Assembly: GCA_000403295.2 (NCBI GenBank)
Contig: KE159605.1
Location: 1,602,484 to 1,645,657 of the forward strand
Length of the DNA: 43,174 nucleotides
DNA from: Lachnospiraceae bacterium M18-1
GTDB taxonomy: Bacteria > Bacillota > Clostridia > Lachnospirales > Lachnospiraceae
Direction: 5' to 3'
Shown: positions 21,663 through 41,091 of the stretch, piece after piece
Position numbering within the stretch: position 1 is the stretch's first letter
Layout of the letters: every line of letters starts with the position of its first letter
The notes under the pieces: generated by a model
The model's database searches: none
What the model was told of the DNA's origin: nothing
Seen by the model: only the letters and a program-made list of their open reading frames with translations
Program-made: the position numbers and the translations under genes

Positions 21663-21758
21663 ATTCTTCCCCTTTTCCATAAATGAGAACAAAAGTGCGC
21701 TTCGCACACTCCCGCATTGTTACATTTTTAGCAGCACAGCTCTTGTTCCGTGTGCTTC

Positions 21759-23022: not shown

Positions 23023-25179
23023 TCAAAAAATTTTATTTATCTCCTCCCATAACTTTTCATATTCCTCATACCCATAACTGATTTTACATCTGGTTAATCT
23101 ATTTTTTGCAAGCTCCTTTAATAATTCTAATTTATCCGGATTGCCGTTTTCTAAATAAAACATGATCGTCTTTTTCAGAAACATAAATTTTTCATGTTGA
23201 TGCTGATGATGCCATTTATTTACAAGAGTATTGCTGCGGATCATTCTGTCATATTCATAGGAAAGATCATCCAGATAACAAATTTTATCTGCATAAGACA
23301 GTATATATGGAGTCCAGGCCTCATCATCATATACAAGAACAGGGAATAAATGTTCTTTTACAAGGGATGCACGATACAGCTTGTTCCAGACGACTACCCC
23401 ATTGGCATTTCCGCTGATATAATAAAAACGGAAAAAATCATCTATTGATATGGCTTTATTTTCTTCCATTGGATATTGTAAATACCGTTCATAACCACGA
23501 TTTGTTATGGAGCAGATCGAAGTCATTGCAATATCACAAGCGTTTGTAACCGCAGAATGATATAACCGTGCTATCATATCAGGATGAAGCATATCATCAT
23601 TATCCATAAAAGCAATATAGCCGCCATTTGCATGTCGTATTCCAGTGTTGCGCGCAGACGGAACGCCGGCATTCTCCTGATGAAATACTGATACATTAGA
23701 GTATTTCTCAGCATACCAGTCAATCATAGTTGGCGTAGAATCGGTACTCCCATCGTCTACGATGATAATCTCCAGCTCAGTAAGTGATTGTGCCAAAGCT
23801 GTGTCGATCGTTCTGGTAATGTATTCTTCTGCATTATATGCAGGAATGATCAAACTAACCTTTGGGTTCTTATACTGCCTTACATCTAAATGGGTCAATT
23901 CAGATTTTGCTATGATCAATCTGCCTTTTAATGTATGAACATAAGCTTTGATAAAAAAGCCGCTGTTTTCTTCATATCCCGTTATAAGATGATAATGCTT
24001 GTGTATATTTTTCGTTTCATGTATCAATGTCCCCGACTCATCATATATAAAAAAGCCGTCTGCATTTCCTTTAAAATCCCACGAGAATGCCATGTTCCCA
24101 TCATATGATCGCTTTAACACGGTTGTTGAAAACGTACAGTTATCCAGACTATAGATCGTAGATGGAACAGATACGCCGCAAGCTTCTTTTCTGTAAAATG
24201 CTTGTATGCATTCTACTATACATCTCTTGGTGTAATAACCATTTCGCAGAGCAGGTGCAAACTGTTCTATATTTCTAAGATATTCTTGGTATTCCGATTC
24301 ATCCATGGCTTCGATCTTTGTAACGGCCTCATTTAGAGAATCGACAATCAGTCCAAGATGGTTCTCTTCTATTAACGTTTGATTTGAAATTCCTGCCGGG
24401 ACGATGACAGGGATTCCTGCTGCCAGATAAATACTGAGCCAAAACTCCGTATGATATTTTATGCTCATATGATCGTATTCATCCGCATACCAGATCAAGC
24501 CGAATCCTCCCTTTGACAATTCTAAAAATAATTCCTCAGGAGTCATATCTGTCGCATTAGAGATATTCAGACATGTATTGTTCAGAGGCGTATACAATTT
24601 CAGGGGAATCCCATACTCCCATTTATTCATTTCCTCATAGATTTTATTGTATATAAAATGAATCTCCTTCTTAAATGCCGGTGTATTCATAAAAATGTTG
24701 CTGACCGTATAATCCCACATTTCTTGAATTATAAATTTTATATTTTCCCGGATCCCCTTATCAAGTAAAAATTGCCGCATAGCAAAAGAATTGACAATCA
24801 ATATTTCAGCCTGATTATATAAATTTATCATTTCACATATTGTATAGTTATTTTTCTCATGAAGGAGCGTCTCAAAGTTATGGATAAAAATTGCGATCCG
24901 GCTGCGGTATGCCCTTAAATGGCTGATCAATTCACGTTCAAATTTCAAACCGTTTCCTGTAGGCAGCTGGCAGATGACAATGTCTCCCTGGTTAATTCCA
25001 GAAATGATGCCGTCAATTCTGCTATTAAGACTTTCAGAACTTTCCTGATTACCGTTATAGCGATAGATCCCCATTTCCCTGCACCCTATTTGATGCGCAA
25101 TGTCTACTGTCATATTCTGTATATATTGAAATGTGTTTCGCAGAGATAGTCCATTTATTTTCGTGATATATATATTCAT
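23023..25179 (-). CDS. Chimeric glycosyltransferase: Gtf3-like domain, linker domain X, GT2 domain
   Basis: 718 residues in three parts. Residues 1-335 are Gtf3-like (starts MNIYITKINGLS; GGFGLIW at 224; YLAAGIPVIVPAGIS at 251), but the Lys of the Y-K-L/I-S motif found in the two other Gtf3 copies here is Trp247, and the 175-215 region has diverged, so this module may be inactive. Residues 355-432 are a domain of unknown type shared with the protein at 26511 (NMAFSWDFKGNADGFFIYDE, then SGFFIKAYVHTLKG). Residues 440-718 are a GT2-family transferase (VSLIIPAYNAEEYITRTID, VDDGSTDST, FMDNDDMLHP with DND as DxD). It is the last gene of the adhesin operon and markedly AT-rich. It probably extends the glycan on the serine-rich adhesin. 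Confidence 0.85.
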   Translation of the reverse strand: MNIYITKINGLSLRNTFQYIQNMTVDIAHQIGCREMGIYRYNGNQESSESLNSRIDGIISGINQGDIVICQLPTGNGLKFERELISHLRAYRSRIAIFIHNFETLLHEKNNYTICEMINLYNQAEILIVNSFAMRQFLLDKGIRENIKFIIQEMWDYTVSNIFMNTPAFKKEIHFIYNKIYEEMNKWEYGIPLKLYTPLNNTCLNISNATDMTPEELFLELSKGGFGLIWYADEYDHMSIKYHTEFWLSIYLAAGIPVIVPAGISNQTLIEENHLGLIVDSLNEAVTKIEAMDESEYQEYLRNIEQFAPALRNGYYTKRCIVECIQAFYRKEACGVSVPSTIYSLDNCTFSTTVLKRSYDGNMAFSWDFKGNADGFFIYDESGTLIHETKNIHKHYHLITGYEENSGFFIKAYVHTLKGRLIIAKSELTHLDVRQYKNPKVSLIIPAYNAEEYITRTIDTALAQSLTELEIIIVDDGSTDSTPTMIDWYAEKYSNVSVFHQENAGVPSARNTGIRHANGGYIAFMDNDDMLHPDMIARLYHSAVTNACDIAMTSICSITNRGYERYLQYPMEENKAISIDDFFRFYYISGNANGVVVWNKLYRASLVKEHLFPVLVYDDEAWTPYILSYADKICYLDDLSYEYDRMIRSNTLVNKWHHQHQHEKFMFLKKTIMFYLENGNPDKLELLKELAKNRLTRCKISYGYEEYEKLWEEINKIF

Positions 25180-25198
25180 ACCTGTCCCCTTTTGTTTT

Positions 25199-26479
25199 TT
25201 ATTTCTGCATTCCCTGCTCCAGAAGTGATCTCCAGATTTCTTTCTTTTTTCTTTGCTGGACCAATAATAATTTCTGCATCAGCTCTGAACTTTTTAATAT
25301 ATATTTAATTACCAGAACCATTTGCTTATATTTTTTTGCCTGATAAATACATCCTTCTACGAATAATTCTTTATGATGCACGGTATTCTCAAATCCCATG
25401 AGCAGCAGATTCTTTTGATGTGCCACATTTACTGCATCACGGATTTCCCTCCAATGGTTGATATCCAGATAGAAGTCACATGTATCCCACAGCTTCTCTA
25501 AAGTCTCCTGGTTCACACATGAATAAATGTTCACATTCTCTTGTTCTCCTATCCTTTTTAACTTATCTGATACCAATGTGTCCGCCGCAATGTGGAATAC
25601 AATGTCCGGCAATTCCTTCGTCAATTCTTCCAGCTTCTCAATCTGGTCAGAATTTGTCAGAATCAGTGCTTCACCCCTTGCTTTATTCTCCGGATAATGC
25701 TCTGGGACCGCATAAAACCGAATACCATTCTTTCCGCCCATATTGATATATTTATTCAGCAGATCCTCGTTCGGAAACAATGTATACTCCCATGTCTGTA
25801 TTCCATCCGGCCTTACGCTTAAAGACTCCAGCATCTTATCATCCTGCACAAAGAATACCCTCTTCTCTTCTGCCGCCGCTTTCATCATATAATGCTCTAA
25901 AAATTCAGCGCGGGAATTAAAGAACGCCTTTACAGTTCCATTCTCCAATAAAGCAACCACATCATTTCCGGGATATTCTATGATCACTTCCTGATTCCCG
26001 TCAGAATAAAACACTTTCGATTCCACTGTTCCTCTTTTATCACGAAATTCACTTGCATACTTTAAGCCGTATTTGTTGTAGAAATCGACCTTATATATCC
26101 AGCCGTTTTCCATGCACCATTCCACACGCTGCACAATTCGTTTTCCCACATTTTCTGCAAAATCCATCTTCTGCCCTGAGGTCTGCTCACGAAAATAAAC
26201 AAACGCCCGCTCGTATCCCATATAATACATACCAATGGCCGCACCGTTTTGCCGCGTTTCCCAGTAGTCTGGAATATCCAGAGAATCAAAAATCAATGCG
26301 TTTTCCTCATGCCGCTCATGATTTTGGCTTAAAATATAATATTCATAAGGAGACGAAATATCGCCTGGTAAAAAACCATCGTCTTCAAAAACCACAACCT
26401 TTTTCTCTGCTCCCAGGCTTTTTTGTGTCTCCCGCAGTTTCTCTATATTTTCAGTATACTTATCTGAAAAAAAAATCAT
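25199..26479 (-). CDS. gtfB: GtfB-like accessory Sec glycosylation subunit, copy 2
   Basis: 426 residues. The order of motifs is that of GtfB: VVVFEDDGFLPGDISSPYEY, PDYWE, a WCMENGWIYKVDFYNKYGLK block, the EALILTNSDQIEKLEELTKE segment, and CDFYLDINHWREI near residue 355. GtfB lacks transferase activity itself in streptococci; it binds the serine-rich acceptor and activates GtfA. It follows the half-GtfA chimera by 31 bases with its own GAGGAG site, so the two may be partners. It is shorter and more AT-rich than copy 1 at 28542 and is clearly diverged. A wholly different role is possible but unlikely. Confidence 0.8.
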   Translation of the reverse strand: MIFFSDKYTENIEKLRETQKSLGAEKKVVVFEDDGFLPGDISSPYEYYILSQNHERHEENALIFDSLDIPDYWETRQNGAAIGMYYMGYERAFVYFREQTSGQKMDFAENVGKRIVQRVEWCMENGWIYKVDFYNKYGLKYASEFRDKRGTVESKVFYSDGNQEVIIEYPGNDVVALLENGTVKAFFNSRAEFLEHYMMKAAAEEKRVFFVQDDKMLESLSVRPDGIQTWEYTLFPNEDLLNKYINMGGKNGIRFYAVPEHYPENKARGEALILTNSDQIEKLEELTKELPDIVFHIAADTLVSDKLKRIGEQENVNIYSCVNQETLEKLWDTCDFYLDINHWREIRDAVNVAHQKNLLLMGFENTVHHKELFVEGCIYQAKKYKQMVLVIKYILKSSELMQKLLLVQQRKKKEIWRSLLEQGMQK

Positions 26480-26510
26480 TACAAAATCTCCTCAAGGTGT
26501 TCCTATACAG

Positions 26511-28523
26511 TTACTGTTGGTCCGCCAGCATTGCCACAATTTCCTTTGCATATATGTCATCATTTTCTAATTCAATATTCTCATCAAAATTAAATTCCGC
26601 CGCATGTTTATTTTTAAATTTCACTTTGTGCATTGCTCCCATTTTATACCACTCATATTCAGAATCAATATGCCCGATATCTAATGCCCAATAACCCTCG
26701 TAAGCCAGATCACAGGCCAAAACCTTTGCTGTCGGCCCCAGCATGAGCAAAATTAATTTATCCTTTCCATGCTGCCTGATCGTATCTAAGATCATCCCAT
26801 ATTTACTGTATGCATTATGAGACGGACAAATAATCCGCTTTACCGAGTTTGCACCTTGGAACAAATCATTCCCCACACCAGACCGTGAATAGAATCCTTC
26901 TACGATCAAAATATTTTTATCTGCAAAAAATGTTTTCAGATTTTGAAAATGCTTTCCAGAGATAGATTTATCTGCCAGATCCATATAAGGCCGTGAAAGA
27001 AATGCACTCCCATAACATTTTCCACCCAAAATAACTTCTGCATAAAAATCTCGATACTGTTCCAGATGCCTCTCCCAAAAGGAACTGCATTCCGCATGAT
27101 AGCGTTCCCTTCTTTCAAAAATATCCGGCAGGCATACTAACAAATTGTCATGATCGGGATTGCTGATAATCTGTTTCAGTTTTTTCGCCAGCTCTTCATC
27201 GTAATCCTGATAGGGAATAGAATGTCCGGTCATCAGATTAATTTCCCCATCTCCAAAACGTGCAGCCGAAGTCTGTCTGTCCTTCAAATATTCCAGAGTC
27301 TCCTGCATATCCAAAATATTTACAAATTTCTCACCGGAAAAATAGATCTGTTCCGACTCCGCTGCCGCCATCTTTCCTTTTATCGTGTTGACAAATGCCT
27401 TTATAAAAAATCCACTTTCTTTCCGGAGACTTTTTATCATGAAATGATGCCGGTTCACATCGTTTGTTTCATATATCCGCATTCCAAGCTCATCATATAT
27501 CCAAAACCCATCTGCCGATCCTTTATAATTCCACCGCAAAACAAAATCTCCATTATAAAATTCATATAAAGCAGCAGAATCGAATTTGCCGGATATCGGC
27601 GCCACTCTAATAGCCGGGACATGACAGTGATACTCTTCCAGTTCTTCCAGCAGAAGCTTCTTTTGCTCTTCCGTTGATACCACCATGGTATCAAGCATCT
27701 CGGCATATGGAAACCAATCATAATAATATCCATTCCAAAATCTACTTTCACTTTTTTTCTCTCTTGAAGAATGATGGCCGATATGAGCCAACGCGGCAAA
27801 CTGCGCCGCCTTTCCGAACGTAAAAACAGCCTGCATGAACTCACTCGGTACGGAATCGTCCAATATAACAACATCCTCTTCTGACAGATCCAACACCTTT
27901 ATAAATTCTTCCACAACCTGCATTCTCATAAAAACTCTGCCGTCCGGAAACAGGAACTTCTCTTCTTCCCCCTCAAATACCTGATCATACGCCGCGGAGC
28001 CGTCACGGTTATAAAATGTACGCCTTGCCAGTTTCGCATACAATCCATTTTCTGACGCTGCTGTTATATACGAATTACTAAAAATGATCCTGTCTGTATA
28101 AACCTCCATACGAAGCAGCTTTGTATAGCTATAATAGCAGATTCCCCAAAGATGATCCCGATCCCTCTCATCCAGCAAGATCACAGCGATGACATAGCCG
28201 CCCTTTACCAGCCGGATTTCTGATTCAAGATGAATGATCCCTGTATAATGTAAACTTTCTTTCAGTTCTTCCAGCTTTTTCTCTGTTTTTATTGACAGCT
28301 TCAGTGAATCGTTATCCGTAAGATACTGATACATACTCACTAACTGCCCGGCATCTATCCCGGCTTTCGTATAATGATCAATTTTCTTATGCTCCGGTAT
28401 TTCCGTAAATATATATTTGATCGGAACAGACGTTTCTCTGGAAGTCTGCTCCTTATATATCCGTATACGGTCTGCACAGTCTATGGCACGTTCAATATCC
28501 CGGCCCAATAAATAGATTGACAC
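26511..28523 (-). CDS. Chimera: GtfA N-terminal half, linker domain X, GT-D (DUF1792) glycosyltransferase
   Basis: Start GTG at 28523 (GGCGGGGG upstream), 670 residues. Residues 1-300 align by eye with the first 290 residues of the GtfA copies (RRTFYNRDGSAAYDQVFEGE against RRFFNENGTVAYEEIIDNE; HIGHHSS and FWNGYYYDWF against HADHFNE and WNNFYEY). The catalytic GT4 domain with its E-x7-E motif is absent. Residues 315-396 are the unknown domain shared with the protein at 23023 (FVLRWNYKGSADGFWIYDE, SGFFIKAFVNTIKG). Residues 415-635 are a GT-D domain: ARFGDGEINLM, DIFERRERY, LIVEGFYSRSGVGNDLF, LLMLGPTAK and GHIDSEYEW, as in the DUF1792 enzymes that glucosylate Fap1-type adhesins. The GtfA part holds the GtfB-binding region and likely acts as an adaptor. 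Confidence 0.85.
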   Translation of the reverse strand: MSIYLLGRDIERAIDCADRIRIYKEQTSRETSVPIKYIFTEIPEHKKIDHYTKAGIDAGQLVSMYQYLTDNDSLKLSIKTEKKLEELKESLHYTGIIHLESEIRLVKGGYVIAVILLDERDRDHLWGICYYSYTKLLRMEVYTDRIIFSNSYITAASENGLYAKLARRTFYNRDGSAAYDQVFEGEEEKFLFPDGRVFMRMQVVEEFIKVLDLSEEDVVILDDSVPSEFMQAVFTFGKAAQFAALAHIGHHSSREKKSESRFWNGYYYDWFPYAEMLDTMVVSTEEQKKLLLEELEEYHCHVPAIRVAPISGKFDSAALYEFYNGDFVLRWNYKGSADGFWIYDELGMRIYETNDVNRHHFMIKSLRKESGFFIKAFVNTIKGKMAAAESEQIYFSGEKFVNILDMQETLEYLKDRQTSAARFGDGEINLMTGHSIPYQDYDEELAKKLKQIISNPDHDNLLVCLPDIFERRERYHAECSSFWERHLEQYRDFYAEVILGGKCYGSAFLSRPYMDLADKSISGKHFQNLKTFFADKNILIVEGFYSRSGVGNDLFQGANSVKRIICPSHNAYSKYGMILDTIRQHGKDKLILLMLGPTAKVLACDLAYEGYWALDIGHIDSEYEWYKMGAMHKVKFKNKHAAEFNFDENIELENDDIYAKEIVAMLADQQ

Positions 28524-28541: not shown

Positions 28542-29939
28542 TTACACTTCCCCCAAATTCTGATAACTTTTTACCGTCTCCGACAGCGCCGATTTCCTTT
28601 GTTTCTGCAGCATCTTTTTCAGCGCCTTGATATCTGACATGGCCGCTTCCGCATCCATACGCATCCGCTCCCACTCATTTGCCGGATAGACATATTCTTC
28701 TGCCGTGTAATCTGCCTGATGCATTGTTTCCTGAAATGCAAAAATCATATGATTATGTAAAAAGGCCCTGTAAACTGCTGAAACGATCTCCGATTCATGA
28801 TTGATATCAAAATAATAATCACAATGTTCAAACAGTTCATTCAAGATCGCTGTCCTGACTCCTGGATAGAGGCTCACATTGGCATACCTCCCCATCCTTG
28901 TAAGTTTGAGAGACATCTCCGTGAGCGCCGCAATATGAAAATGCATCTGCGGCAATGCTTTGATCAGGTCCTCACAATGCTCAATATGATCGGAGTTCGT
29001 ACAGATCAGAGCCTCCGGCCGGTGCATATTTCCCTTTGCAAACGGATAAACAAACCCCAATTTATGAATCATACTTTTCTTTGCCCCAAGTTCGATCAGC
29101 TTATCGTAGGATTTCTTCTTTTGCACGATGACCATAGCCGTGCGTCCGGCCTCCCCCTTAAAAATAGACTGCATATTTCCTGGGATGTCATCCCGCTTCG
29201 GCTCCTGCCAAAATAATACATCCCGCTTTTCCTGGGACTTCAGCCGATTCGACACAAAATACGGTGTGGACAAAGAATTATAGAAAATCCGGTTCTGTTT
29301 AAATCCCGCGCGCGCAAAGAAGTACAGCACAAACTCCGTCTTGTTGTGAAAAATCCGCACCTCATTCTCCTCATTTAAAATGATATCGCCGGTCACAAAA
29401 TTCTCCACTATGACTTCCCGACCGTCTGCCGAAAAATACGATTTATTCACCTTCTGCCCCTTCGCGTTAAAGATCGTCCGTCCGTAGATCGCCCCATAGC
29501 GGTTGTAATGATCGCTGGAACGGACGACTCCACGCTCATCGTACCAGTCCACCACTCTTACCATACGTTTATGCTTCGGCTCTGCATAGAAGATCCTGCC
29601 CCTCTCCTTATCCAGATCCTGCACCTTACCGCTTGTATTCGTACCGCTGATCTCCCAATAATCCGGCACCCTGATCTCATTAAAATACTTTGGCCGCGCC
29701 GCGTCTCCTAACACAGCCTTAAAATCACCAAGGAAAAAATGATACACAGCCGTCACGTCATCCGGCAAAAAACCGTCGTCCTCGATCACCACGGCCGGAT
29801 ATTCAAACCCTGCCGCTTTGAATGACAGATGTAAATTCCGGCTGTCCTGATCATAATTGTCTAAAAGTAATATCGCATCATCCAGTTTCACAGTTGTATT
29901 GGAATCTGTCTTTTCTTTTGTCTTTTTCCCTTTCTCCAT
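28542..29939 (-). CDS. gtfB: GtfB-like accessory Sec glycosylation subunit, copy 1
   Basis: 465 residues, close to the usual GtfB size. After a charged N-terminal tail (MEKGKKTKEKTDSNTT) come AILLLDNYDQDSRNLHLSFK, VIEDDGFLPDDVTAVYHFF, PDYWEI, RVVDWYDERGVVRSSDHYNR, a central insertion domain, PEALICTNSDHIEHCEDLIK and CDYYFDINHESEI. These are the hallmarks of the non-catalytic acceptor-binding partner of GtfA. Two full-length GtfA genes lie upstream (32597 and 31053), either of which could pair with it. It precedes the half-GtfA chimera by 18 bases. Confidence 0.88.
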   Translation of the reverse strand: MEKGKKTKEKTDSNTTVKLDDAILLLDNYDQDSRNLHLSFKAAGFEYPAVVIEDDGFLPDDVTAVYHFFLGDFKAVLGDAARPKYFNEIRVPDYWEISGTNTSGKVQDLDKERGRIFYAEPKHKRMVRVVDWYDERGVVRSSDHYNRYGAIYGRTIFNAKGQKVNKSYFSADGREVIVENFVTGDIILNEENEVRIFHNKTEFVLYFFARAGFKQNRIFYNSLSTPYFVSNRLKSQEKRDVLFWQEPKRDDIPGNMQSIFKGEAGRTAMVIVQKKKSYDKLIELGAKKSMIHKLGFVYPFAKGNMHRPEALICTNSDHIEHCEDLIKALPQMHFHIAALTEMSLKLTRMGRYANVSLYPGVRTAILNELFEHCDYYFDINHESEIVSAVYRAFLHNHMIFAFQETMHQADYTAEEYVYPANEWERMRMDAEAAMSDIKALKKMLQKQRKSALSETVKSYQNLGEV

Positions 29940-30004: not shown

Positions 30005-31024
30005 TCACTCATAAAGCAGTTTGAACACTGCATCTGTCAACGCTTTTTTCGTAAAATATCCTTCACGCAGCACACAGGCAAATGCTTCCGCACTTTCCGC
30101 CATGCCGTTATACTCTTCCTCATTCATATGCTCGATCCGCTCCACTGCTTCCTCCAGTGAATCTACGGCAATTCCCAGTTTTTTTTGAATCACAGTTTTT
30201 TCTTCCGCTATCCCGGAAGGCACAATAACCGGGAGCCCCGAAGCCAGATAAGTGCTGAGCTTATAAGAAGCGTTCTTTTTCATATACTCGCGCCAATTAG
30301 GGTCCTCTGACCACAGCAAGCCAAAACCACCGCTGTTTCTGAGGGCATCCGCTAATAAATCATCATTATGAAACCATTCCAGAAAACGCACATTCCTGCC
30401 TTTAGCCCACTCCCCATCCTCCGTACTGACCGCCAGTTGGATATGGTCATACTTCCATTCTCTGGCAAATGCATATCTGGGGTTCCTATCCGGGTTTGCC
30501 GCAAAGTTGATCACCTTCTTAAATCGGGGTTTTCTTGCAGGCTCAACAGACAAAACATGATCCCACATTCTCTGGACGACCACTTTTTTGACAGTCAGGC
30601 CATGCGCACGCAAAAAATCAACCATGGCCTGTGATGGGGCGATAAGCACATCTGCCCGATTATACAAGTCTATATATCGGCTGAGCGGTATCACCCAATT
30701 GGGATACATCAGCGGTATGACATCATGAATAAAAACGATTTTTTTTGCCCCCACACGCACATTCAGCCTGTCCATTAATTTTTCTTCAAATACAATATTA
30801 TTCCACGTGGGAGTCTGCAGCACTGCCACGTCATTGCTGCCCACAGATGCAATGATCCCCTCTATCCGTGTCCGTAACATTTCAGCTGTATCAGATTCTA
30901 CCGCATAGCAATATATTCCCAATTCCCCATACTGCAAGTCTCTCTTTGCGATATGGACCACATCATTTTGAGTCTTTGTTTCCGTTTTGCCAAGCCCATA
31001 AATATTTGTAATATGAACTTTCAT
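30005..31024 (-). CDS. Gtf3-like glycosyltransferase (second-sugar transferase), copy 2
   Basis: 339 residues, starting MKVHITNIYGLGKTETKTQN. Gtf3 (also called Nss) adds glucose to the GlcNAc placed by GtfA/GtfB in streptococci. Characteristic segments are ELGIYCYAVESD, GSNDVAVLQTPTWN, VFIHDVIPLMYPN, MVDFLRAHGL, EWKYDHIQLAV, GGFGLLWSEDPNWREYMKKN, and ASYKLSTYLASGLPVIVPSG with the Lys of the donor site retained. It looks active and is clearly paralogous to the copy at 34161, with many substitutions, so it may use another sugar or acceptor. Confidence 0.87.
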   Translation of the reverse strand: MKVHITNIYGLGKTETKTQNDVVHIAKRDLQYGELGIYCYAVESDTAEMLRTRIEGIIASVGSNDVAVLQTPTWNNIVFEEKLMDRLNVRVGAKKIVFIHDVIPLMYPNWVIPLSRYIDLYNRADVLIAPSQAMVDFLRAHGLTVKKVVVQRMWDHVLSVEPARKPRFKKVINFAANPDRNPRYAFAREWKYDHIQLAVSTEDGEWAKGRNVRFLEWFHNDDLLADALRNSGGFGLLWSEDPNWREYMKKNASYKLSTYLASGLPVIVPSGIAEEKTVIQKKLGIAVDSLEEAVERIEHMNEEEYNGMAESAEAFACVLREGYFTKKALTDAVFKLLYE

Positions 31025-31052: not shown

Positions 31053-32540
31053 TCACTTCAATATATTCTTCCATCCCTTTTCCACTTCTTTTGTAAGATA
31101 CATCTTCGCCTTTTCATAAGAGTGCTCATGAAATTTTTCCATATCCGCTTCTCTGAACAGCCGGACGATGCATTCCGTCAGCTTCTGTATCCGTTCCTTT
31201 CGCCCCATCTTATCATGCACTGCGATCAGACAGCCGTTTTTCCCGTCGTCTATAAAATTCTGGTTTCCATAACGTACATCAAATCCTATGATGGGCAGAC
31301 CAGAGCCGACCGCTTCCATCAAAGTGAGTCCGAATCCCTCGCTGGTCGAGCCAGATAAGTATACTTCATACTCCTTATATACCTCATCCAGATCTTGCTG
31401 TCCGCAAAGCCGTACATAGTCTCCGCATTGCAGCTTTTGAATCAATTCCTGCAATGTTCCCTCTTCTTTTCCCTTCCCGTAAATATCCAGCGAAACATCC
31501 GGTATATACTTTCTGGCCGCCGCTGCTGCTTCGATCAGCCAGTCTACATGCTTTTCGTCAGCAAGTCTGGACGCCGTGATCATTGCATGCTTTCTTCTTT
31601 TCTCTGGTTTCTTCAATTCATCCAGACCTCCTGCCGGGACCGTCACGATCCTGGGGCTGATCCCCATATACTTTTTAAACTGCTTTTTCAAAAGTTTATT
31701 TTGTGCATCTGTGGAAGTAACATAAAATTTCACATGTTTATGCTGGGAAAATGCATATTCATAAAAGTTGTTCCAAAGGATATGCTCCTCATCCGTACTT
31801 GCTTCGTTAAAATGGTCTGCATGGATCACGATGCCGATCCGGGCCGGAGACGCATTCTGCATGACCGCCTGTCCAATCTCCTTATTTCTGTCTATGATAA
31901 CGGTGTCCCGCCGCGTCAGATTGAGTTTTGAGACCATATACCCCACAAGCCCCTCTTTCGAACAGATCAGCCGGTCTGGAAACTGATACATGACAGCCTC
32001 ATTATCTATGATCTCTTCATACGCCACCGTTCCATTCTCATTAAAAAATCTTCGTTGGTAAAGATGTGCTTTTTTATCAAATGGTGCGTAATACTCCGAA
32101 TAGATCCTGCAGTATGTATAATAATCTTTCCGGATCAGACGCCCGTTTGATACAATCTCTGCCCTGTGCACCCGATTCTCTTTTCCGTTTACCAGATACA
32201 CCATATAGTATTCATTCGTCCCCGGAAATGTGTATTTCACTGAAGCGCCCTGCCTGAGGCAGGTAAACCTCCGATTTCCGAATTTTTTTTCCAGATCCCG
32301 CAGCGTATAAGTCACCGGCGATGTTTTGCAGTCTGTAAAAAAAGTATAAAGCCAGATGATCTCCGAATCCAAAAATCCTATATTCTCTGTCATATGCTGA
32401 ATATTATCCTTCGGAAACATATCCGTAAATATGAATTTTGCCTCTTGGCCTGCCTCCCGCAAAATCTTTGCGCGGTAAGCTTGCGCGTACTCCACACCGC
32501 TGCTGGCCCATCCGATTCCCAAGTTGAAATTATATACCAT
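31053..32540 (-). CDS. gtfA: GtfA-like O-GlcNAc transferase, copy 2
   Basis: 495 residues. The N-terminal motif GIGWASSGVEYAQAYRAKIL is the GtfA signature. An add-on beta domain follows (residues 75-230, involved in GtfB binding in streptococci), then HADHFNE, ITASRLADEKHVDWLIEAAA (donor-binding Arg and Lys), and the GT4 E-x7-E motif EGFGLTLME (E401 and E409). The role is transfer of GlcNAc from UDP-GlcNAc to Ser/Thr of the adhesin in the cytosol, with GtfB. It matches the copy at 32597 along its whole length with no gaps of note, so the pair arose by tandem duplication. GAGGAGG lies just before the ATG. Confidence 0.92.
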   Translation of the reverse strand: MVYNFNLGIGWASSGVEYAQAYRAKILREAGQEAKFIFTDMFPKDNIQHMTENIGFLDSEIIWLYTFFTDCKTSPVTYTLRDLEKKFGNRRFTCLRQGASVKYTFPGTNEYYMVYLVNGKENRVHRAEIVSNGRLIRKDYYTYCRIYSEYYAPFDKKAHLYQRRFFNENGTVAYEEIIDNEAVMYQFPDRLICSKEGLVGYMVSKLNLTRRDTVIIDRNKEIGQAVMQNASPARIGIVIHADHFNEASTDEEHILWNNFYEYAFSQHKHVKFYVTSTDAQNKLLKKQFKKYMGISPRIVTVPAGGLDELKKPEKRRKHAMITASRLADEKHVDWLIEAAAAARKYIPDVSLDIYGKGKEEGTLQELIQKLQCGDYVRLCGQQDLDEVYKEYEVYLSGSTSEGFGLTLMEAVGSGLPIIGFDVRYGNQNFIDDGKNGCLIAVHDKMGRKERIQKLTECIVRLFREADMEKFHEHSYEKAKMYLTKEVEKGWKNILK

Positions 32541-32596: not shown

Positions 32597-34087
32597 TTAC
32601 TTTAAGACTTCCTGCCACTTTTTTTCCACTTGTTCTGTAAGATAAGGCCTGGCTTTTTCATAGGAGTGTTGATGGAACTTCTCCATATCTGCCTTCGTAA
32701 ATAACCGTATGACACACTCTGTCAATCTTTGGATCCGTTCTTCTTCCTTCATTTCATCACGGACGGAAATCAGATAGCCATTTTTTCCCTCGTCTATAAA
32801 ATTAGGGTTTCCATAGCGCACATCAAAGCCTATGATCGGAAGTCCTGATCCTGCCGCCTCCATCAGAGACAGGCCGAATCCCTCACTCGTAGATCCTGAC
32901 AGGTACGCCTCGTATTCTTTATATACCTCATCCATTTTTTTCTGGCCGCATAGGCGCACATAATCGCCGCAGTTCAGTTTTTGAATCAATTCCTTCAGCC
33001 GGGCCTCCTCAGGCCCCTTTCCATAAATGTCCAGTGAAACATCCGGTATCCTCTCTCTGGCTGCCGCAACTGCCTTGATAAGCCAGTCCGCATGCTTTTC
33101 TCCGGAAAGACGTGATGCGGTGACCAGGGAATGCCGGCGTCTTGCTCGTGCCGGGATCTTAAGTTCCTCCAGGCTTCCCACCGGAATCGTCACGATCCTG
33201 GGGCTTACCCCTTTATACTCTTTAAATTGCTTTTTCAGCAAACGGTTCTGCACATCCGTAGAGGTAACATAAAACTTTACGCGTTTGTTTTGAGAAAACA
33301 TATATTCATAATAGTTATTCCAGCGGACATGATGTTCATCCGTATTCCTCTCATTAAAATGATCTGCATGAATCACGACCCCCAGCCGCGCGGGAGCGGC
33401 ATTTTGTACAACGGCCCTGCCTGATTCGATGGATCTGTCAATGATCACAACATCCCGCTTTGTAAGATTTAAACATGACAGCATATAGCCGATCAGTTCC
33501 CCCTTTGAATAAAGGCATCGATCCGGAAACTGATACATCACCGCATCGCCGTCTATGATCTCTTCATACGCTGTCCCTCCGTCTTCATTAAAAAATCTGC
33601 GCAGATACAGATGTCCCTTGTGATCAAGCGGGGCATAATATTCGGAATAACTCCTGCAATATGTATAATAATCTTTTCGGATCAGACAGCCGTTCGAAAT
33701 CATCTCCACTCTATGGACACGGTCCTCTGCGTCATTTACCGTATAAGCTTTATAATAGCAATTGATTCCCGGGAACATATACGTCACTACATTTTTTTCT
33801 CTTGAAGCATGATATTTTTTATGCTCAAATGTTTGTTCCAATTGTTCCAGAGTATAAGTTACCGATGAAATCTTACAATCAGTAAAAAAAGTATAAAGCC
33901 AGATGATCTCAGAATCTAAAAAACCGATATTTTCAGTCAGGTGTTCTATATTTTCTTCCGGAAACATATTTGTAAATATAAATTTTGCTTCTTTTCCAAT
34001 TCTGCGCAGGATCTTCGCCCTGTATACCTGCGCATATTCTACTCCGCTGCTGGCCCACCCGATCCCTTGGTTAAAATTGTAAATCAT
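32597..34087 (-). CDS. gtfA: GtfA-like O-GlcNAc transferase, copy 1
   Basis: 496 residues with the same layout as copy 2: GIGWASSGVEYAQVYRAKIL at the N-terminus, the add-on domain up to about 230, HADHFNE (240-246), VTASRLSGEKHADWLIKAVA (R326, K331) and EGFGLSLME (E402, E410). All residues expected for a GT4 retaining transferase are there. AGGAG lies 8 bases before the ATG. It follows the Gtf3 copy at 34161, whereas in copy 2 the Gtf3 gene comes afterwards, so the order Gtf3-GtfA-GtfA-Gtf3 is mirror-like. Why two complete GtfA genes are kept is unclear; different GtfB partners are one option. Confidence 0.92.
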   Translation of the reverse strand: MIYNFNQGIGWASSGVEYAQVYRAKILRRIGKEAKFIFTNMFPEENIEHLTENIGFLDSEIIWLYTFFTDCKISSVTYTLEQLEQTFEHKKYHASREKNVVTYMFPGINCYYKAYTVNDAEDRVHRVEMISNGCLIRKDYYTYCRSYSEYYAPLDHKGHLYLRRFFNEDGGTAYEEIIDGDAVMYQFPDRCLYSKGELIGYMLSCLNLTKRDVVIIDRSIESGRAVVQNAAPARLGVVIHADHFNERNTDEHHVRWNNYYEYMFSQNKRVKFYVTSTDVQNRLLKKQFKEYKGVSPRIVTIPVGSLEELKIPARARRRHSLVTASRLSGEKHADWLIKAVAAARERIPDVSLDIYGKGPEEARLKELIQKLNCGDYVRLCGQKKMDEVYKEYEAYLSGSTSEGFGLSLMEAAGSGLPIIGFDVRYGNPNFIDEGKNGYLISVRDEMKEEERIQRLTECVIRLFTKADMEKFHQHSYEKARPYLTEQVEKKWQEVLK

Positions 34088-34160: not shown

Positions 34161-35180
34161 TCAGCCACACAGCAGTTCAAATATTGCATCTGCCAGCAGC
34201 CTTTTTGTAAAATAATTTTCCCGGATCAAATTAGAAAACAATGCCACATCGCCGGTCATTTTATGATATTGCGCTTTACTCATGTCCTCCACCCTACTCA
34301 CAGCCTCATCTAAAGAGTCAACGGCCATTCCCAGATTTTTACGGATGATAGTTTCCTTTTCCGCAATTCTATTGTTTACGATCACAGGAAGCCCTGCCGC
34401 CAGGTATGCACTGATCTTGTAGTTCGCATTCAGCGCCATATACTCGCTCCAATAATCATGATCCGTCCATACAAGTCCGAATCCTCCGCCCTTTCTGAGC
34501 GCGTCTGCCAGAAAAATATCATCGTTGAACCAGCCGAGGAAGCTGATATTCTTCCCCTCTGCCCAGTCTCCCTTCTGAGCTGTCACTCTCAATTCTACCT
34601 GATCATATTTCCATTCTTTCACAAATCCAAATTTCCATGATTCCGGATCTCCTGCAAAATGGATCACTTTTCTAAATTCAGGTGTGATCGTACTGTCAAC
34701 AGGTACCGGGAAATCCCACATTTTTTGTATGACTGTTTTTTTCACTGTCATTCCCTGCGATGCCAGAAAGTCTGCCATCCCCTGTGAGGGAAGTATCACT
34801 GATTCTGCCTGATTCAGGATCGCGATCTGCCTGCTTAAAAGATAACGATTATTTTCAAACATTAAGGAAGGAATATCGTGGACAAAAATGATCAGCTTCA
34901 ATCCTTTATATTGCTTCAGCCGGTGCACAAAGGCCTCATCAAATCCGGTACTGTTCCATGCCGGATATTGAAAAATAACAACATCTCCGTACCCTACGGA
35001 AGCTATGATTCCATCGATCCGCGAATGCAATGCTTCCGGCGAGTCAGAATCCATGTCGTAAGAATAGATTCCCAGCTCTTTGCAGCCCATTGTTCTCGCA
35101 GTTTCAGCCGCCCTGTTTTGTGCCTTTAATGCCGTACTCGTAAAGCTCTGCCCGTAAATATTTGTAATATGAATGTTCAA
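34161..35180 (-). CDS. Gtf3-like glycosyltransferase, copy 1
   Basis: Start TTG at 35180 (GGCGGGG upstream), since the conserved MNIHITNIYGQSFTSTALKA begins there; 339 residues. Segments in order: KELGIYSYDMDSDSPEALHS, YGDVVIFQYPAWN, IFVHDIPSLMFENN, MADFLASQGM, EWKYDQVELRV, GGFGLVWTDHDYWSEYM and NANYKISAYLAAGLPVIVNN. This is the full pattern of Gtf3, which elongates GlcNAc on the serine-rich adhesin. It directly follows secA2 (22 bases), the position where the glycosylation genes meet the export genes in many accessory Sec loci. Confidence 0.88.
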   Translation of the reverse strand: MNIHITNIYGQSFTSTALKAQNRAAETARTMGCKELGIYSYDMDSDSPEALHSRIDGIIASVGYGDVVIFQYPAWNSTGFDEAFVHRLKQYKGLKLIIFVHDIPSLMFENNRYLLSRQIAILNQAESVILPSQGMADFLASQGMTVKKTVIQKMWDFPVPVDSTITPEFRKVIHFAGDPESWKFGFVKEWKYDQVELRVTAQKGDWAEGKNISFLGWFNDDIFLADALRKGGGFGLVWTDHDYWSEYMALNANYKISAYLAAGLPVIVNNRIAEKETIIRKNLGMAVDSLDEAVSRVEDMSKAQYHKMTGDVALFSNLIRENYFTKRLLADAIFELLCG

Positions 35181-35202: not shown

Positions 35203-37539
35203 TTACGGAAACAATATGTGAAGTTTATTCGCTTTGTCTACATAGACATCACTTAACAATATATTTCTCATAGCATTTTCTTTCACGGTCCTTTCCATTT
35301 TGCTGAAAGAATCAAATCCGTCGTTTTGATATTCAAACAGCACATTCCTCTGTGCCATGGCTCTGCCGGATACCGCAGACTGCAATTGCTGCAGATAGTC
35401 GACCTGTTCCACCCATGCATGATCGACTGCGCTGAGTATCGCGATCCGCATAAATTCATTCATACGCTTCCTGTCTCCCAGCGCATGCTCCTGCTTTTCC
35501 AGCCCTCGTTTCACCTTTTCAAGCAGGCAAGCTTCCATACAGGCCTCGTCACGAAGCGAAAGCTCTGTGACATCTTCATCCAAACGGTAGGAAATGTTAT
35601 CTAAAATGTATCTGTGAAAATCATTTCGGTCGCTGCACATCCCGGAATCCAAAAAGCGCCTTATATTCTCCGCGGCAATTTCCATGATTTTTTCCATCTC
35701 CAATTCTCCGCCGTCGAGCAGGTGATTTCTTGTCGCATAGATCAGATCCCTCTGACGCCGGATCACCTTGTCATAATCAACAGAGCGCTTTCGTGACGAT
35801 ATGGAGCTTTCTTCGCTTAATCTTTGCGCCTTGTGAATCATCTTTTTCATTCTTCGTTTACTGATCCGTCTTCTGCCCTCTATATACTTCTCCAGATTTT
35901 CCGGTCCGTTCTCCTCTACAACTCCATCCTGGAGTGATACAAAAAATTGACTGGTTCCCGCATCTCCTTGTCTTCCGGCCCGGCCCCTTGCCTGACGTTC
36001 CGGCCTGACACTTCCCATCCGTCCGATTCCTATCACCGCAAGGCCGCCCAGTTCTTCCACCCCCGGCCCCAGCCTGATATCCGTCCCCCGCCCGGCCATC
36101 GCCGTCGCAACCGTCACTGCTTTCCGCTGTCCGGCTTCTTTGATGATTTCCGCCTCCCAGGACGCATTATTTGCGTTCAGTACATTATGCGGGATTTTTT
36201 CTTTCACTAAGACCTCCGACATACGCTCCGAGTCTCCGATCGTGGAGACCACGATCAGTACCGGCCTTCCCGTATCATGGATCTCCAAAATTGCTGCTGC
36301 CGCCGCCTCAAACTGCTCCTGTGCATTTCGAAAATGACGATCCGGAAAATCTTTTCTTTTTTGCGGACGGTTCGGCGGAACCACCAGTACCTTCGCCCCG
36401 TATACACTCCTTAATTCTTCGGGTGCATCCGCCATCGTTCCGCTCATCCCCGCCATTTTGGGGAAAAGCAAAAACAAATTCTGAAATGTAATCGCCGCCA
36501 TGGATCTGGTTTCCCGAGAAGCCCTTAATTTTTCTTTCACTTCAATTGCCTGATGCAGTCCTCCTCTGAGTTTCACTCCCGGCAGCATCCTTCCGGAGCC
36601 GCCGTCAAGAAGTATCACTTCTCCTTCATTTGAAACCACATACTCTTTCCCTTTTTGAAACAGTACATGTGCCCGAAGGGCCAATATGACATGCCGGTTT
36701 ATCTCAAAAAATTCCTCACTGTAGAAATTCTCGATCTGGAAAAAAGTTTCTGCATATTTGATTCCTTTCTCTGTAAACCACACTTTATTTTCTTCTTGCA
36801 GATAGTCCACATCTTTGGTAAGCGTGGTGACAAAAAAATCAGCCGTCTCATATAGCCTGGACTGTACTCTTGGGGAGCCTGAGATCACAAGAGGCGTCTG
36901 GGCCGAGTCTAAAAGCACGGAATCCGCCTCGTCGATCACCACATAATAAAATTCCCGCAGAAAACGATCACCTGCCCTGGTCACCAGATTGTTCAGTAGA
37001 TAATCAAAGCCTAGTACACCGTGCGTGGTATACACAATATCTGCCGCATAAATTTTTTTCTTTTCTTCATTTGTAAAACTCTGTTTCGCATTTTCAGGAA
37101 CTCCCGCCGCCACGGACAGCCCCATGAATCGGTATACTTGTCCCATCTCCTGCGCGTCACGCAGGGCAAGGTAATCATTCGCCGTCACCAAGATCGTGCT
37201 CTTTCCGGTCAGAGCGTTGAGATATAAGGGCATGGTCGCCGCAAGCGTCTTTCCCTCGCCTGTATTCATTTCAGCAAGATATCCCTGGTGCAGTGCGATC
37301 CCTCCCAGCACTTGTACATCATAAGGCGCGGTCCCCAATACCCTGTGATCAGCCTCACATATGGCTGCAAATGCTTCCGGCAAAATATCATCCAGGCTTT
37401 TTCCTTCTGCCAGACGCTGCTTGAACTCTACAGTCAGGTTTGAAAGTTCTTCATCTGACAGCCCTGCCATGTGTTCTCCATAGCTTCTTACCTTCTTTAC
37501 GATTTTTTTTAGTCTTTTCAAGTTCCTTTTCCGTCTCAT
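35203..37539 (-). CDS. secA2: SecA2, accessory Sec translocation ATPase
   Basis: 778 residues, shorter than SecA1 because the C-terminal linker and zinc/SecB-binding tail are missing, as in accessory SecA proteins. Visible: TAPYDVQVLGGIALHQGYLA, Walker A GEGKT (94-98), TANDYLALRDAQEMG, Walker B VVIDEADSVLLDSAQTP, the preprotein cross-linking part, GMSGT, TAMAGRGTDI and RQARGRAGRQGDAG. It drives export of the glycosylated adhesin through SecY2. The ATG at 37539 (AGGAA upstream) lies inside asp3, an 89-base overlap. That is unusual but both frames look real, because the SecA2 N-terminal helix (KRLKKIVKKVRSYGEHMAGL) must start about there. Confidence 0.95.
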   Translation of the reverse strand: MRRKRNLKRLKKIVKKVRSYGEHMAGLSDEELSNLTVEFKQRLAEGKSLDDILPEAFAAICEADHRVLGTAPYDVQVLGGIALHQGYLAEMNTGEGKTLAATMPLYLNALTGKSTILVTANDYLALRDAQEMGQVYRFMGLSVAAGVPENAKQSFTNEEKKKIYAADIVYTTHGVLGFDYLLNNLVTRAGDRFLREFYYVVIDEADSVLLDSAQTPLVISGSPRVQSRLYETADFFVTTLTKDVDYLQEENKVWFTEKGIKYAETFFQIENFYSEEFFEINRHVILALRAHVLFQKGKEYVVSNEGEVILLDGGSGRMLPGVKLRGGLHQAIEVKEKLRASRETRSMAAITFQNLFLLFPKMAGMSGTMADAPEELRSVYGAKVLVVPPNRPQKRKDFPDRHFRNAQEQFEAAAAAILEIHDTGRPVLIVVSTIGDSERMSEVLVKEKIPHNVLNANNASWEAEIIKEAGQRKAVTVATAMAGRGTDIRLGPGVEELGGLAVIGIGRMGSVRPERQARGRAGRQGDAGTSQFFVSLQDGVVEENGPENLEKYIEGRRRISKRRMKKMIHKAQRLSEESSISSRKRSVDYDKVIRRQRDLIYATRNHLLDGGELEMEKIMEIAAENIRRFLDSGMCSDRNDFHRYILDNISYRLDEDVTELSLRDEACMEACLLEKVKRGLEKQEHALGDRKRMNEFMRIAILSAVDHAWVEQVDYLQQLQSAVSGRAMAQRNVLFEYQNDGFDSFSKMERTVKENAMRNILLSDVYVDKANKLHILFP

Positions 37540-37972
37540 TTTCTATTTCCTGAATCACAATTGATCGAAAGTGAAAATGCTTCATTCCGCCGTTGATCAG
37601 CTGCAGCTTATAACTATAAGTCTTAAGCGGACATTGAAACTCCATCACTTTGTCTCTCACAGTAACATATCCGGCCTCTACATCGTACTTGTCATAAAAG
37701 ACCAGCCGCACAAGCCATGCTTCCTCTTCCGGGCAGTCCACATTGACCGTGATCTGATACCTGTTCTCACCGTCAATGATCGGCAGCGCCGGTTCGATCC
37801 TCTGCTTTTGATAATTTGTTTTGGAATACCATTGTTTGATGACTGTCCCTGACGGCATCAGATTGTTTTTAAATTCCACATCATTCATCTTATGGTAATC
37901 GATTTCCGAACCATACAAATACGTATCCGAAGAGTATTCGCTCCAATAAACCGTCCATTTTTGTCCCATCAT
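37451..37972 (-). CDS. asp3: Asp3, accessory Sec system protein
   Basis: 173 residues. The family pattern is visible: WSEYSSDTYLYGSEIDYHKM, VEFKNNLMPSGTVIKQWYSK, YQKQRIEPALPIIDGENRYQ, then EAWLVRLVFYDKYD and the C-terminal YSYKLQLINGGMKHFHFRSI. Asp3 binds Asp1/Asp2 and SecA2 and the nascent adhesin. The last 30 residues are a basic helix (ELEKTKKNRKEGKKLWRTHG) whose codons overlap the start of secA2. Tandem ATG codons at 37972 and 37969 directly abut the asp2 stop. Confidence 0.9.
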   Translation of the reverse strand: MMGQKWTVYWSEYSSDTYLYGSEIDYHKMNDVEFKNNLMPSGTVIKQWYSKTNYQKQRIEPALPIIDGENRYQITVNVDCPEEEAWLVRLVFYDKYDVEAGYVTVRDKVMEFQCPLKTYSYKLQLINGGMKHFHFRSIVIQEIENETEKELEKTKKNRKEGKKLWRTHGRAVR

Positions 37973-39472
37973 TTATTTTTTTGTCCTCTCAGGAAAATCT
38001 TCGCTTAGCATTTTTATAAACTGACTGGAAAACCAGTTTGCCGTTGCCGCCTGCGCATCTCCGTGCCTGCCGTGAAGCCCCCTTCCATACACCTGCACGC
38101 CTCCGGAGCGGAGATGGGAAAGCATTTCCTCATATACACCGCTTTCAAAATCATCCTCTATCATATAAGAAATGATAAATTTTGATTTTCCCCAGTCCGC
38201 GGAATCAAATTTATTCCAAAACTTGTCATTCACTCTCTTTATGGCTTCCTCACCCGTATCTCCGCCCAGATACCTTAATACATCTAATGATGTAGGATAA
38301 CCGCCGGGCCGGGCATATTTCTCATTAGCCGCAACATTGCCAATACCAGCCAGCGGTTTCATCAGCAGCAATGCATGTGGTTTGATATCACAGCCGTAAT
38401 ACATGGAAGCATAAGCCCCCATCGAAAGGCCTGACAAGATCACCTGATCTGACGAAAAGCCCAGCTCTTTCATGTATTTGCTGATAGCAGAAAGTACCAT
38501 TTCTTCGTATTCCTTACTTCCTACATAAAAACTTCCTCCCCTCAGCCGATGCTCTGACAGCAAAAGGAATGGGCAGCCAAGCTTTCTATTTAAATTGTAG
38601 CCCTGAAATCGTTCGGGTATCTCCCATCCTGAGAAAAAAACATTAAGCGGCGGTTTCATATCTCTGGGGTCAAAGTAGCAAAACAACTCTTCCCGGTCAG
38701 AAGTCACATACCGCTCTCCGCCCGGCAGAAAGTGCCCATGGCTGCCCCGGGAGTTCCTTTTATGCAGCGCTATGATCCGGAGTGTTCCGCTTCCTCTGGC
38801 GCAGATGGATACAAACGCCTGCCCGTTTTGTTTACTTTCTACCTGGACTGGCTGCGCTAACTCTGTCTCATCAAACTTCCAGCATTCCGCCGCCTCTGCA
38901 AGGCTTCCCTCCGCAAATCGAGTGATCTCAAGGCTGATAGACACGGAAGGGTCCTTACGATATTCCAGCCAAAAATCAAGAGCTTGTCCCTGGGGCAGAT
39001 ACACATTATACCGCCAAAAAGCTGCTTGTCCCAACTCCGTCCCAAAGTCACCTTCCAAAGTCACAGCGTATTCATCCCACTTCACCTTTCCAGAAAACCC
39101 CTGGGCGATTGTCCAATATTTCAGATCCAGCTTTTCACCGTAAGGCTTCGGATAATAGTATTTGGTTTCCTGCAGTAAAAAGTCTTGAATGTTCTTTAAC
39201 GCAATATGCCGCGCCCTTTTGGAGCAGCAGAGCCAGGCTGTCCTGCCTTCTACATTCACGTGCCGGGTAATAAAAAGGGTGTGCGCCTTAACAGCTTGAT
39301 ATAAGAGGGGGACCTCTTCCTCCAAAGGGGATCGGTCCAGAAAAAACAGATCATATTGCTTGTCCGGCACTTTTACAAATTTTTCCATATATTCCAGGGA
39401 GACATTCGAGGGTAGTGTATATCTATGATTCCAATCCTCATTCCCTAACTGTAGAATATAAATCTGCTCCAA
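37973..39472 (-). CDS. asp2: Asp2, accessory Sec system protein / acetyltransferase
   Basis: 499 residues. The first 110 are an N-terminal domain with Asp2-like features (RSPLEEEVPLLYQAVKAHTL). A beta-sandwich region (about 115-270) follows, then an alpha/beta-hydrolase-type domain with VFFSGWEIPERFQGYNL and VILSGLSMGAYASMYYG (Ser350 as nucleophile). E439 in SYMIEDDFE and H470 in GLHGRHGD complete a Ser-Glu-His triad at the spacing that I recall for streptococcal Asp2, which acetylates GlcNAc on the adhesin. It overlaps asp1 by 35 bases. Confidence 0.92.
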   Translation of the reverse strand: MEQIYILQLGNEDWNHRYTLPSNVSLEYMEKFVKVPDKQYDLFFLDRSPLEEEVPLLYQAVKAHTLFITRHVNVEGRTAWLCCSKRARHIALKNIQDFLLQETKYYYPKPYGEKLDLKYWTIAQGFSGKVKWDEYAVTLEGDFGTELGQAAFWRYNVYLPQGQALDFWLEYRKDPSVSISLEITRFAEGSLAEAAECWKFDETELAQPVQVESKQNGQAFVSICARGSGTLRIIALHKRNSRGSHGHFLPGGERYVTSDREELFCYFDPRDMKPPLNVFFSGWEIPERFQGYNLNRKLGCPFLLLSEHRLRGGSFYVGSKEYEEMVLSAISKYMKELGFSSDQVILSGLSMGAYASMYYGCDIKPHALLLMKPLAGIGNVAANEKYARPGGYPTSLDVLRYLGGDTGEEAIKRVNDKFWNKFDSADWGKSKFIISYMIEDDFESGVYEEMLSHLRSGGVQVYGRGLHGRHGDAQAATANWFSSQFIKMLSEDFPERTKK

Positions 39473-41060: not shown

Positions 41061-41091
41061 CTTTTCCTCCAAAGTAACCCAAAATCATCTG

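Follow-up and report, generated by a model that had tools for sequence, protein, structure and literature searches.

A predicted FN3-like joint between glycosyltransferase modules in two chimeric proteins of a Lachnospiraceae accessory Sec cluster

In the glycosylation clusters of serine-rich repeat (SRR) adhesins, GtfB is regarded as a chaperone without catalytic activity (PMC12809243), and the DUF1975 region, the extended beta-sheet domain, is reported to make both the mutual contact of GtfA and GtfB and the contact with the adhesin (PMC6973325, PMC5156392). For Gtf3 of Streptococcus parasanguinis, Asp101 is given as catalytic, Arg179 and Lys246 as serving the donor and Tyr211 as lying at the uracil; an L. 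reuteri enzyme has Lys for Arg179 and Trp for Tyr211 (PMC12809243). The third sugar in S. parasanguinis is reported to be added by GT-D (PMC5207161) and the fourth by the GT-A domain of dGT1 (PMC5063993). Here a stretch of 43,174 nucleotides from Lachnospiraceae bacterium M18-1 (the window) was analysed, in which two minus-strand genes within an accessory Sec (aSec) cluster encode chimeric proteins, designated A (23023-25179, 718 amino acids) and B (26511-28523, 670 amino acids, start codon GTG), that share a segment designated X. By its predicted fold X is a divergent beta-sandwich of fibronectin type III (FN3)-like type. Judged from their residues, the modules in front of it look like retired transferases, a Gtf3 without the known catalytic and donor residues in A and a GtfA of a second type (GtfA2) without the donor half in B. 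The reading that we favour, with moderate confidence, is that retired transferase scaffolds dock the adhesin and are fused, in most cases through the FN3-like joint, to exchangeable live glycosyltransferase domains.

The shared segment and its predicted fold

The segments of A and B are homologous, as the initial annotation of this DNA had proposed. BLASTP aligned A 338-438 with B 302-402 without gaps, with 38/101 identical (38%) and 65/101 positive residues (E 3e-21), and the local alignment score of 208 lies far beyond those of 2000 shuffles of one segment (mean 27.2, sd 5.0, maximum 55). The profile of the relatives sets X at A 350-431 and B 314-395, close to the limits first given. The motif described at that time stands except for its first F, which is not common to both (FSW in A, LRW in B).

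The AlphaFold2 model of B residues 306-402 has a predicted local distance difference test (pLDDT) value of 87.9, and in the full-length model of A the ten-residue blocks of X lie at 86-94, except 411-420 (63, with the turn 416-418 below 50). The predicted structure is a seven-stranded, two-sheet beta-sandwich of the FN3 type. The hallmarks of FN3 are a core Trp in strand B and the Tyr-corner region of strand F; X has Trp331 (of B) in strand B and the stretch FFIKA in strand F, where the corner residue is Phe or Tyr. Comparison of the X profile with accepted FN3 domains gave a direct probability of 59 over 32 columns, and 83 and 96 by way of tandem repeats; 20 column-shuffled controls reached at most 0.94. 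No match to the fn3 model PF00041 was found in whole A or B to E 0.1 or in the segments alone to E 10, and X is therefore filed as FN3-like by its fold and the chain of profiles, not as a member of PF00041. Library scans of the proteins and of the segments gave X no direct Pfam or NCBIfam assignment, and a search of PDB sequences with profile A3 returned nothing at E up to 1. A new fold was considered and is ruled out by the structure matches to FN3.

X has in common with the FN3 superfamily (PF00041; the Fn3-like 3mpc; the N-terminal part of the pectate lyases PelI/Pel3, 3b4n and 4u49, which we take to be FN3) the predicted beta-sandwich, the strand-B Trp, the ADGF/ADGY turn and the F-strand pattern (F/Y)-x-(I/V)-K-A. 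It differs in the missing Pfam fn3 match and in its place between glycosyltransferase modules, presumably inside the cell. Several FN3 proteins met in the scan of the family of genome G001, which carries one of the related clusters, are, in contrast, long and surface-protein-like. The earlier description of an all-beta, Trp- and Gly-rich module agrees with the prediction. That it belonged to no named domain is right in so far as no Pfam model matches X, but the predicted fold is a known one, and the claim of an unknown domain becomes an ordinary one once X is FN3-like.

Trp331, His359 and Gly383 of B are each found in 79/79 relatives, a set that includes many close kin. It could be argued that X is a remnant of fusion history, with no selected function beyond spacing and subject to neutral drift in a decaying cluster: only one end branch of the X tree is longer than that of the copy of B, which deviates at one position that is Ser in 79/79 others. 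X is nevertheless well conserved from the Lachnospiraceae-type to the Gastranaerophilales-type proteins, at a mean column identity of 65% across 24 rows, and the GT2 catalytic motifs behind it are intact in 13/13 proteins compared, which makes a mere remnant highly improbable. The single odd residue of B was also considered as a signal of contact with GT2; it was found too thin and is not used.

Front modules and catalytic domains

The N-terminal part of A is Gtf3-like (3qkw, E 1.2e-71) and does not have the residues of an active Gtf3/GT113 enzyme (Asp101, Arg179, Tyr or Trp211, Lys246). Asp101 is replaced by Asn, Arg179 is missing or Tyr depending on the alignment, Tyr211 is Asp and Lys246 is Trp. 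Seven of the 11 chimeric Gtf3 modules compared lack all three donor residues and eight lack Asp101. Among six stand-alone Gtf3 copies four have every readable residue (one of these is partial) and the copy in G286 has lost all; in the partial stand-alone copy of G912 the Arg179 column holds Pro, with an Arg beside it. The C-terminal part of A is a GT2 domain (PF00535, 127.5 bits against a cut-off of 23.3, E 6.3e-37) with MDNDD present. The full-length model of A has a pLDDT of 79; the stretch 332-344 between Gtf3 and X falls below 50 and the passage from X into GT2 is high, which suggests a flexible tether ahead of X and a close seat of X on GT2.

B is GtfA-like over about residues 1-310 only. 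It aligns to the Gtf1 structures 5e9t and 4pqg only at 14-307 and 14-318, ending presumably where the second Rossmann domain of GtfA begins, and it falls short of a full GtfA (TIGR02918, 140.8 against 574.6 bits). The extended beta-sheet domain is retained (PF22145, 34.9 bits, cut-off 27.9). The N-terminal half is 41-48% identical to GtfA2 and to GtfA-N chimeras and 23-26% to ordinary GtfA. The C-terminal part is a GT-D domain (PF08759, 298.9 against 27 bits, E 3.3e-89; TIGR03728, 362.3 against 290.75 bits; PDB 4pfx, E 5e-97), 73% identical to the GT-D fused to Gtf3 in G912.

The initial annotation was right that X joins accessory Sec modules to unrelated catalytic domains, GT2 (PF00535) in A and GT-D (PF08759) in B. 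It missed the loss of the known catalytic and donor residues in the Gtf3 of A and the restriction of the GtfA of B to the non-donor half, both read from the sequences. Front modules that retain activity, with a different donor or mechanism, would make A and B bifunctional or multifunctional, as is reported for dGT1 of S. parasanguinis, a real fusion of two activities (PMC5063993). Of the 11 chimeric modules two do have the known Gtf3 residues complete, and Asp101 is the sole loss in another two. A, however, has lost all four mapped residues and no donor-binding Rossmann match of GtfA is found in B before X, and dual activity of these two proteins appears quite improbable.

Module exchange and occurrence in other genomes

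The window and seven related clusters were annotated by one script. The combination GtfA-N/X/GT-D is that of B, and GtfA-N/X/GT2 is found in G001 and G915. Gtf3/X/GT2 is found in A, G912, G917 (twice), G909, G286 and G345, and also, by Pfam domains and X match, in the database proteins P0005 and P0073; a Gtf3/X protein of G345 is truncated by the contig end. B is 49% identical to the G001 protein up to residue 394, after which they diverge, and A is 52% identical to the same protein across X and GT2, so that there are borders on both sides of X. An open reading frame in G912 (C8, 9029-10879, joined from L058 and L059) has a Gtf3-like module with lost key residues fused directly to GT-D.

In the Gtf3 tree a branch with 100/100 support separates all 11 chimeric modules, along with a single stand-alone copy, from 3qkw and the remaining stand-alone copies; the Gtf3/GT-D protein lies among the chimeras. 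The stand-alone Gtf3-like protein at L045 8307-9317, which lies among the chimeras in the tree, has lost all four key residues, as if its C-terminal modules had been lost. The X+GT2 tree places both GtfA-N proteins among the Gtf3 proteins, next to P0073 (87/93). The simplest history, of which the order of events is inferred, is that X-GT2 was captured once behind Gtf3 and moved to a GtfA2-type N-half, with later exchanges of GT2 for GT-D. GtfB2, a diverged GtfB, occurs in 5/5 clusters with a GtfA2-type N-half (window, G001, G912, G915, G917) and in 0/2 without it (G909 and G286, in the stretch fetched only), G345 being cut short; because G001 and G915 are near-identical, this amounts to at most four independent cases.

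Two strict motifs searched in 84,980 species genomes gave three confirmed loci. A Lachnospiraceae aSec cluster accounts for one of them, and of the remaining two one is titled Candidatus Gastranaerophilales. Strong matches to the X profile were found in 20/117 genomes of the order of G003 and in 23/244 of its phylum, the same 20 included. Around G001 they were found in 5/12 genomes of the genus, 3/397 of the family (G001 included), 1/391 of the class and 1/398 of the phylum; the bearer in the last two draws is G001 itself, and X is thus rare there. Searches of a protein database with the domain regions gave one protein among 16 candidates for B (a near-copy of B), two among 20 for A (the near-copy P0004, and P0005) and 68 among 937 for the FN3-repeat region of L003. 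The near-copies of A and B, P0004 and P0003, are left out of the counts. For the weak hits 14/16 were scanned, leaving out L015 (internal stops) and L022 (a 115-residue frame). Two proteins that are probably metagenome chimeras were excluded: P0070, with a leucine-rich part and X-GT2, and P0072, in which the match is to an earlier repeat instead of X.

In Gastranaerophilales-type proteins X is the last of several FN3-like repeats ahead of GT2, the X profile in many of them also recognises the preceding repeat, and over 349 residues their X+GT2 unit and A share 46-47% identity. The expectation, raised with the initial annotation, that X would always join Gtf-type modules is refuted by these proteins. 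Most likely X would have been the final FN3 repeat of a GT2 enzyme before it became a joint for module swaps. One protein of this kind, L048 (G452:C64, read as L044 142-2406, minus strand), has 755 residues with at least four FN3-like repeats before GT2, and a Pfam GH85_C match.

Among 15 genomes around G001, G286 and G345, three of which were known in advance to hold X, the Asp2 model matched six, and presence of X and of Asp2 agrees in 14 (Fisher P 0.0014, kinship uncorrected). The exception is G345, in which X, GtfA and GtfB lie together on a short contig. Asp2 was matched in none of the 20 X-bearing genomes of the order of G003, a search in which the tool's own controls gave no signal. X might itself bind the acceptor, glycan or peptide, in the manner of human POMGNT2, for which acceptor recognition is reported to be split between the catalytic and FN3-like domains (PMC13411425), and the near-invariant positions of X noted above, His359 and Gly383 among them, would fit this. 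The company of X and GT2 even in the 20 genomes without an Asp2 match makes a common adhesin ligand unlikely, one Gtf3/GT-D fusion manages without X, and acceptor binding by X is regarded as rather unlikely.

Proposed mechanism, surrounding cluster and known systems

In the docking reading, the retired scaffolds of A and B would still recognise the SRR adhesin, A through Gtf3 surface contacts and oligomerisation; in B the extended beta-sheet domain would do so, probably jointly with GtfB2 from the adjacent gene. The scaffold would hold the live GT-D or GT2 on the adhesin, to which that domain would add a sugar, and X would serve as a spacer beside the catalytic domain; the common connector role first suggested for X fits this. 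By analogy with S. parasanguinis, B and A may carry out later glycosylation steps. Several points weigh against this reading. The direct match of X to the FN3-repeat profile has a probability of no more than 59 over 32 columns; Foldseek gave no match at E <=0.001 (best 2.4e-3), and its top 50 include non-FN3 titles such as four L,D-transpeptidases and a GH66 enzyme. The 2/11 complete chimeric Gtf3 modules mean that some family members may be bifunctional. In the Gtf3 of A the two halves are conserved alike, the acceptor side at 38% and the donor side at 40% to 3qkw. The low predicted template modelling score of the full-length model of A (0.51) gives little confidence in its domain arrangement, and the Gtf3/GT-D protein of G912 shows that the joint is not required.

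A wider proposal is put forward tentatively, at somewhat below even confidence: the aSec clusters of Lachnospiraceae would diversify adhesin glycans in the manner of an assembly line. The docking platforms, one able to stand in for another, would be a dead Gtf3 or a half GtfA2 with its own GtfB2; behind them, at a recurrent FN3 joint derived from a Gastranaerophilales-like FN3-GT2 protein, live GT2 and GT-D domains would replace each other. The claim of an unknown domain is replaced by an FN3-like joint and by natural recombination in which the front modules are kept and the catalysis behind them is swapped. If docking by dead scaffolds is true, it would explain how new sugars are gained on one adhesin, offer a natural template for targeted glycosyltransferases, and carry over to Gtf3 and a second GtfA the principle known from GtfB, in which an inactive protein is the chaperone of the acceptor. 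That retired transferases are reused as modules is worth testing.

The minus-strand gene order is SRR adhesin tail, SecY2, Asp1, Asp2, Asp3, SecA2, Gtf3, GtfA, GtfA, Gtf3, GtfB1, B, GtfB2, A (Table 1).

Table 1. Positions of the modules of A and B and of the surrounding genes in the window
Feature	Position	Strand	Basis
X of B, residues 314-396	27336..27584	-	BLASTP to A, hidden Markov model span, AlphaFold2 model, FN3 fold matches
X of A, residues 350-432	23884..24132	-	BLASTP to B, hidden Markov model span, full-length model
GtfA-type N-terminal half of B, residues 1-313 (Rossmann domain I and extended beta-sheet domain), without donor-binding half	27585..28523	-	PF22145, Gtf1 structure alignment
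GT-D catalytic domain of B, residues 402-670	26514..27320	-	PF08759, TIGR03728, PDB 4pfx
Residues 1-330 of A, Gtf3-like scaffold (GT113) with changes at all four mapped catalytic/donor positions	24190..25179	-	3qkw
Linker from Gtf3 scaffold to X in A, residues 331-349	24133..24189	-	pLDDT <50 at 332-344, full-length model
GT2 catalytic domain of A, residues 437-718	23026..23871	-	PF00535; DxD-type and (E/D)D motifs present
GtfB2, diverged GtfB encoded between B and A, which may partner the GtfA-N half of B	25199..26479	-	TIGR02919 255.4 bits, below cut-off 338.3
GtfB1, canonical GtfB	28542..29939	-	TIGR02919 506.7 bits, above cut-off
Stand-alone Gtf3-like, key residues present	30005..31024	-	
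GtfA, first copy	31053..32540	-	TIGR02918 701.8 bits, above cut-off
GtfA, second copy, 72% identical to first	32597..34087	-	
Stand-alone Gtf3-like, key residues present	34161..35180	-	
Accessory Sec genes SecA2, Asp3, Asp2, Asp1, SecY2	35203..42297	-	Family models; PF16929, PF16993, PF00344
SRR adhesin, C-terminal end, presumed substrate	42572..43165	-	MSDAS repeats and conserved tail

SecA2 (TIGR03714), Asp2 (TIGR03712) and Asp1 (TIGR03713) score above cut-off. The best matches of SecY2, PRK12417 and TIGR02920, are both below the NCBIfam cut-offs, and Asp3 was named by position and likeness to genes in the same place in related clusters, without a family-library scan. The product of 25199-26479 fails the TIGR02919 cut-off and is named GtfB2 as a diverged relative. 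The GtfA pair lies side by side between the two Gtf3 copies, which are 49% identical to each other. The adhesin tail of the window is 53-54% identical to tails from two other clusters. This tail and that at L001 1-1554 have no LPXTG signal by eye, and the two end alike, in a hydrophobic stretch (ELILAAIMGGAYIGSTRKQKK) and then charged residues, an anchor of an unusual kind. Outside the cluster, the open reading frame 17568-21707, which we take to be SbcC-like from its sequence, contains at 19084-19295 (minus strand) five tandem 42-base repeats, units of about 14 residues with CxVC motifs that are present besides the CPVCG motif usual in an SbcC hook.

In the literature, an FN3 domain in SRR-adhesin glycosyltransferases was not found among the matches listed, as far as titles and the starts of abstracts go; one listed paper brings SecA2, SecY2 and Lachnospiraceae together.

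The known systems resemble A and B in part. Like a member of the GtfA-GtfB complex, B starts with the N-half of GtfA, including the extended beta-sheet domain for contact with GtfB and acceptor, but it has no GtfA donor half and ends in another transferase. dGT1 (GalT1) of S. parasanguinis, with GT-D and GT-A, is like B a fusion with GT-D in an SRR-adhesin glycosylation cluster; it has two live transferase domains, whereas B joins half a GtfA to GT-D through an FN3-like domain. In human POMGNT2, likewise a glycosyltransferase, acceptor recognition makes use of an FN3-like domain; the enzyme is eukaryotic, has FN3 at the C-terminus and belongs to another catalytic family. TarS of Staphylococcus aureus is a GT-A transferase with Ig-like beta-sandwich modules, which are reported to help acceptor binding and processivity (PMC5156392). 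These modules are C-terminal, serve trimerisation and are CBM-like, unlike FN3-like joints to other transferases. POMGNT2 and TarS are functional parallels to the X proteins, not relatives.

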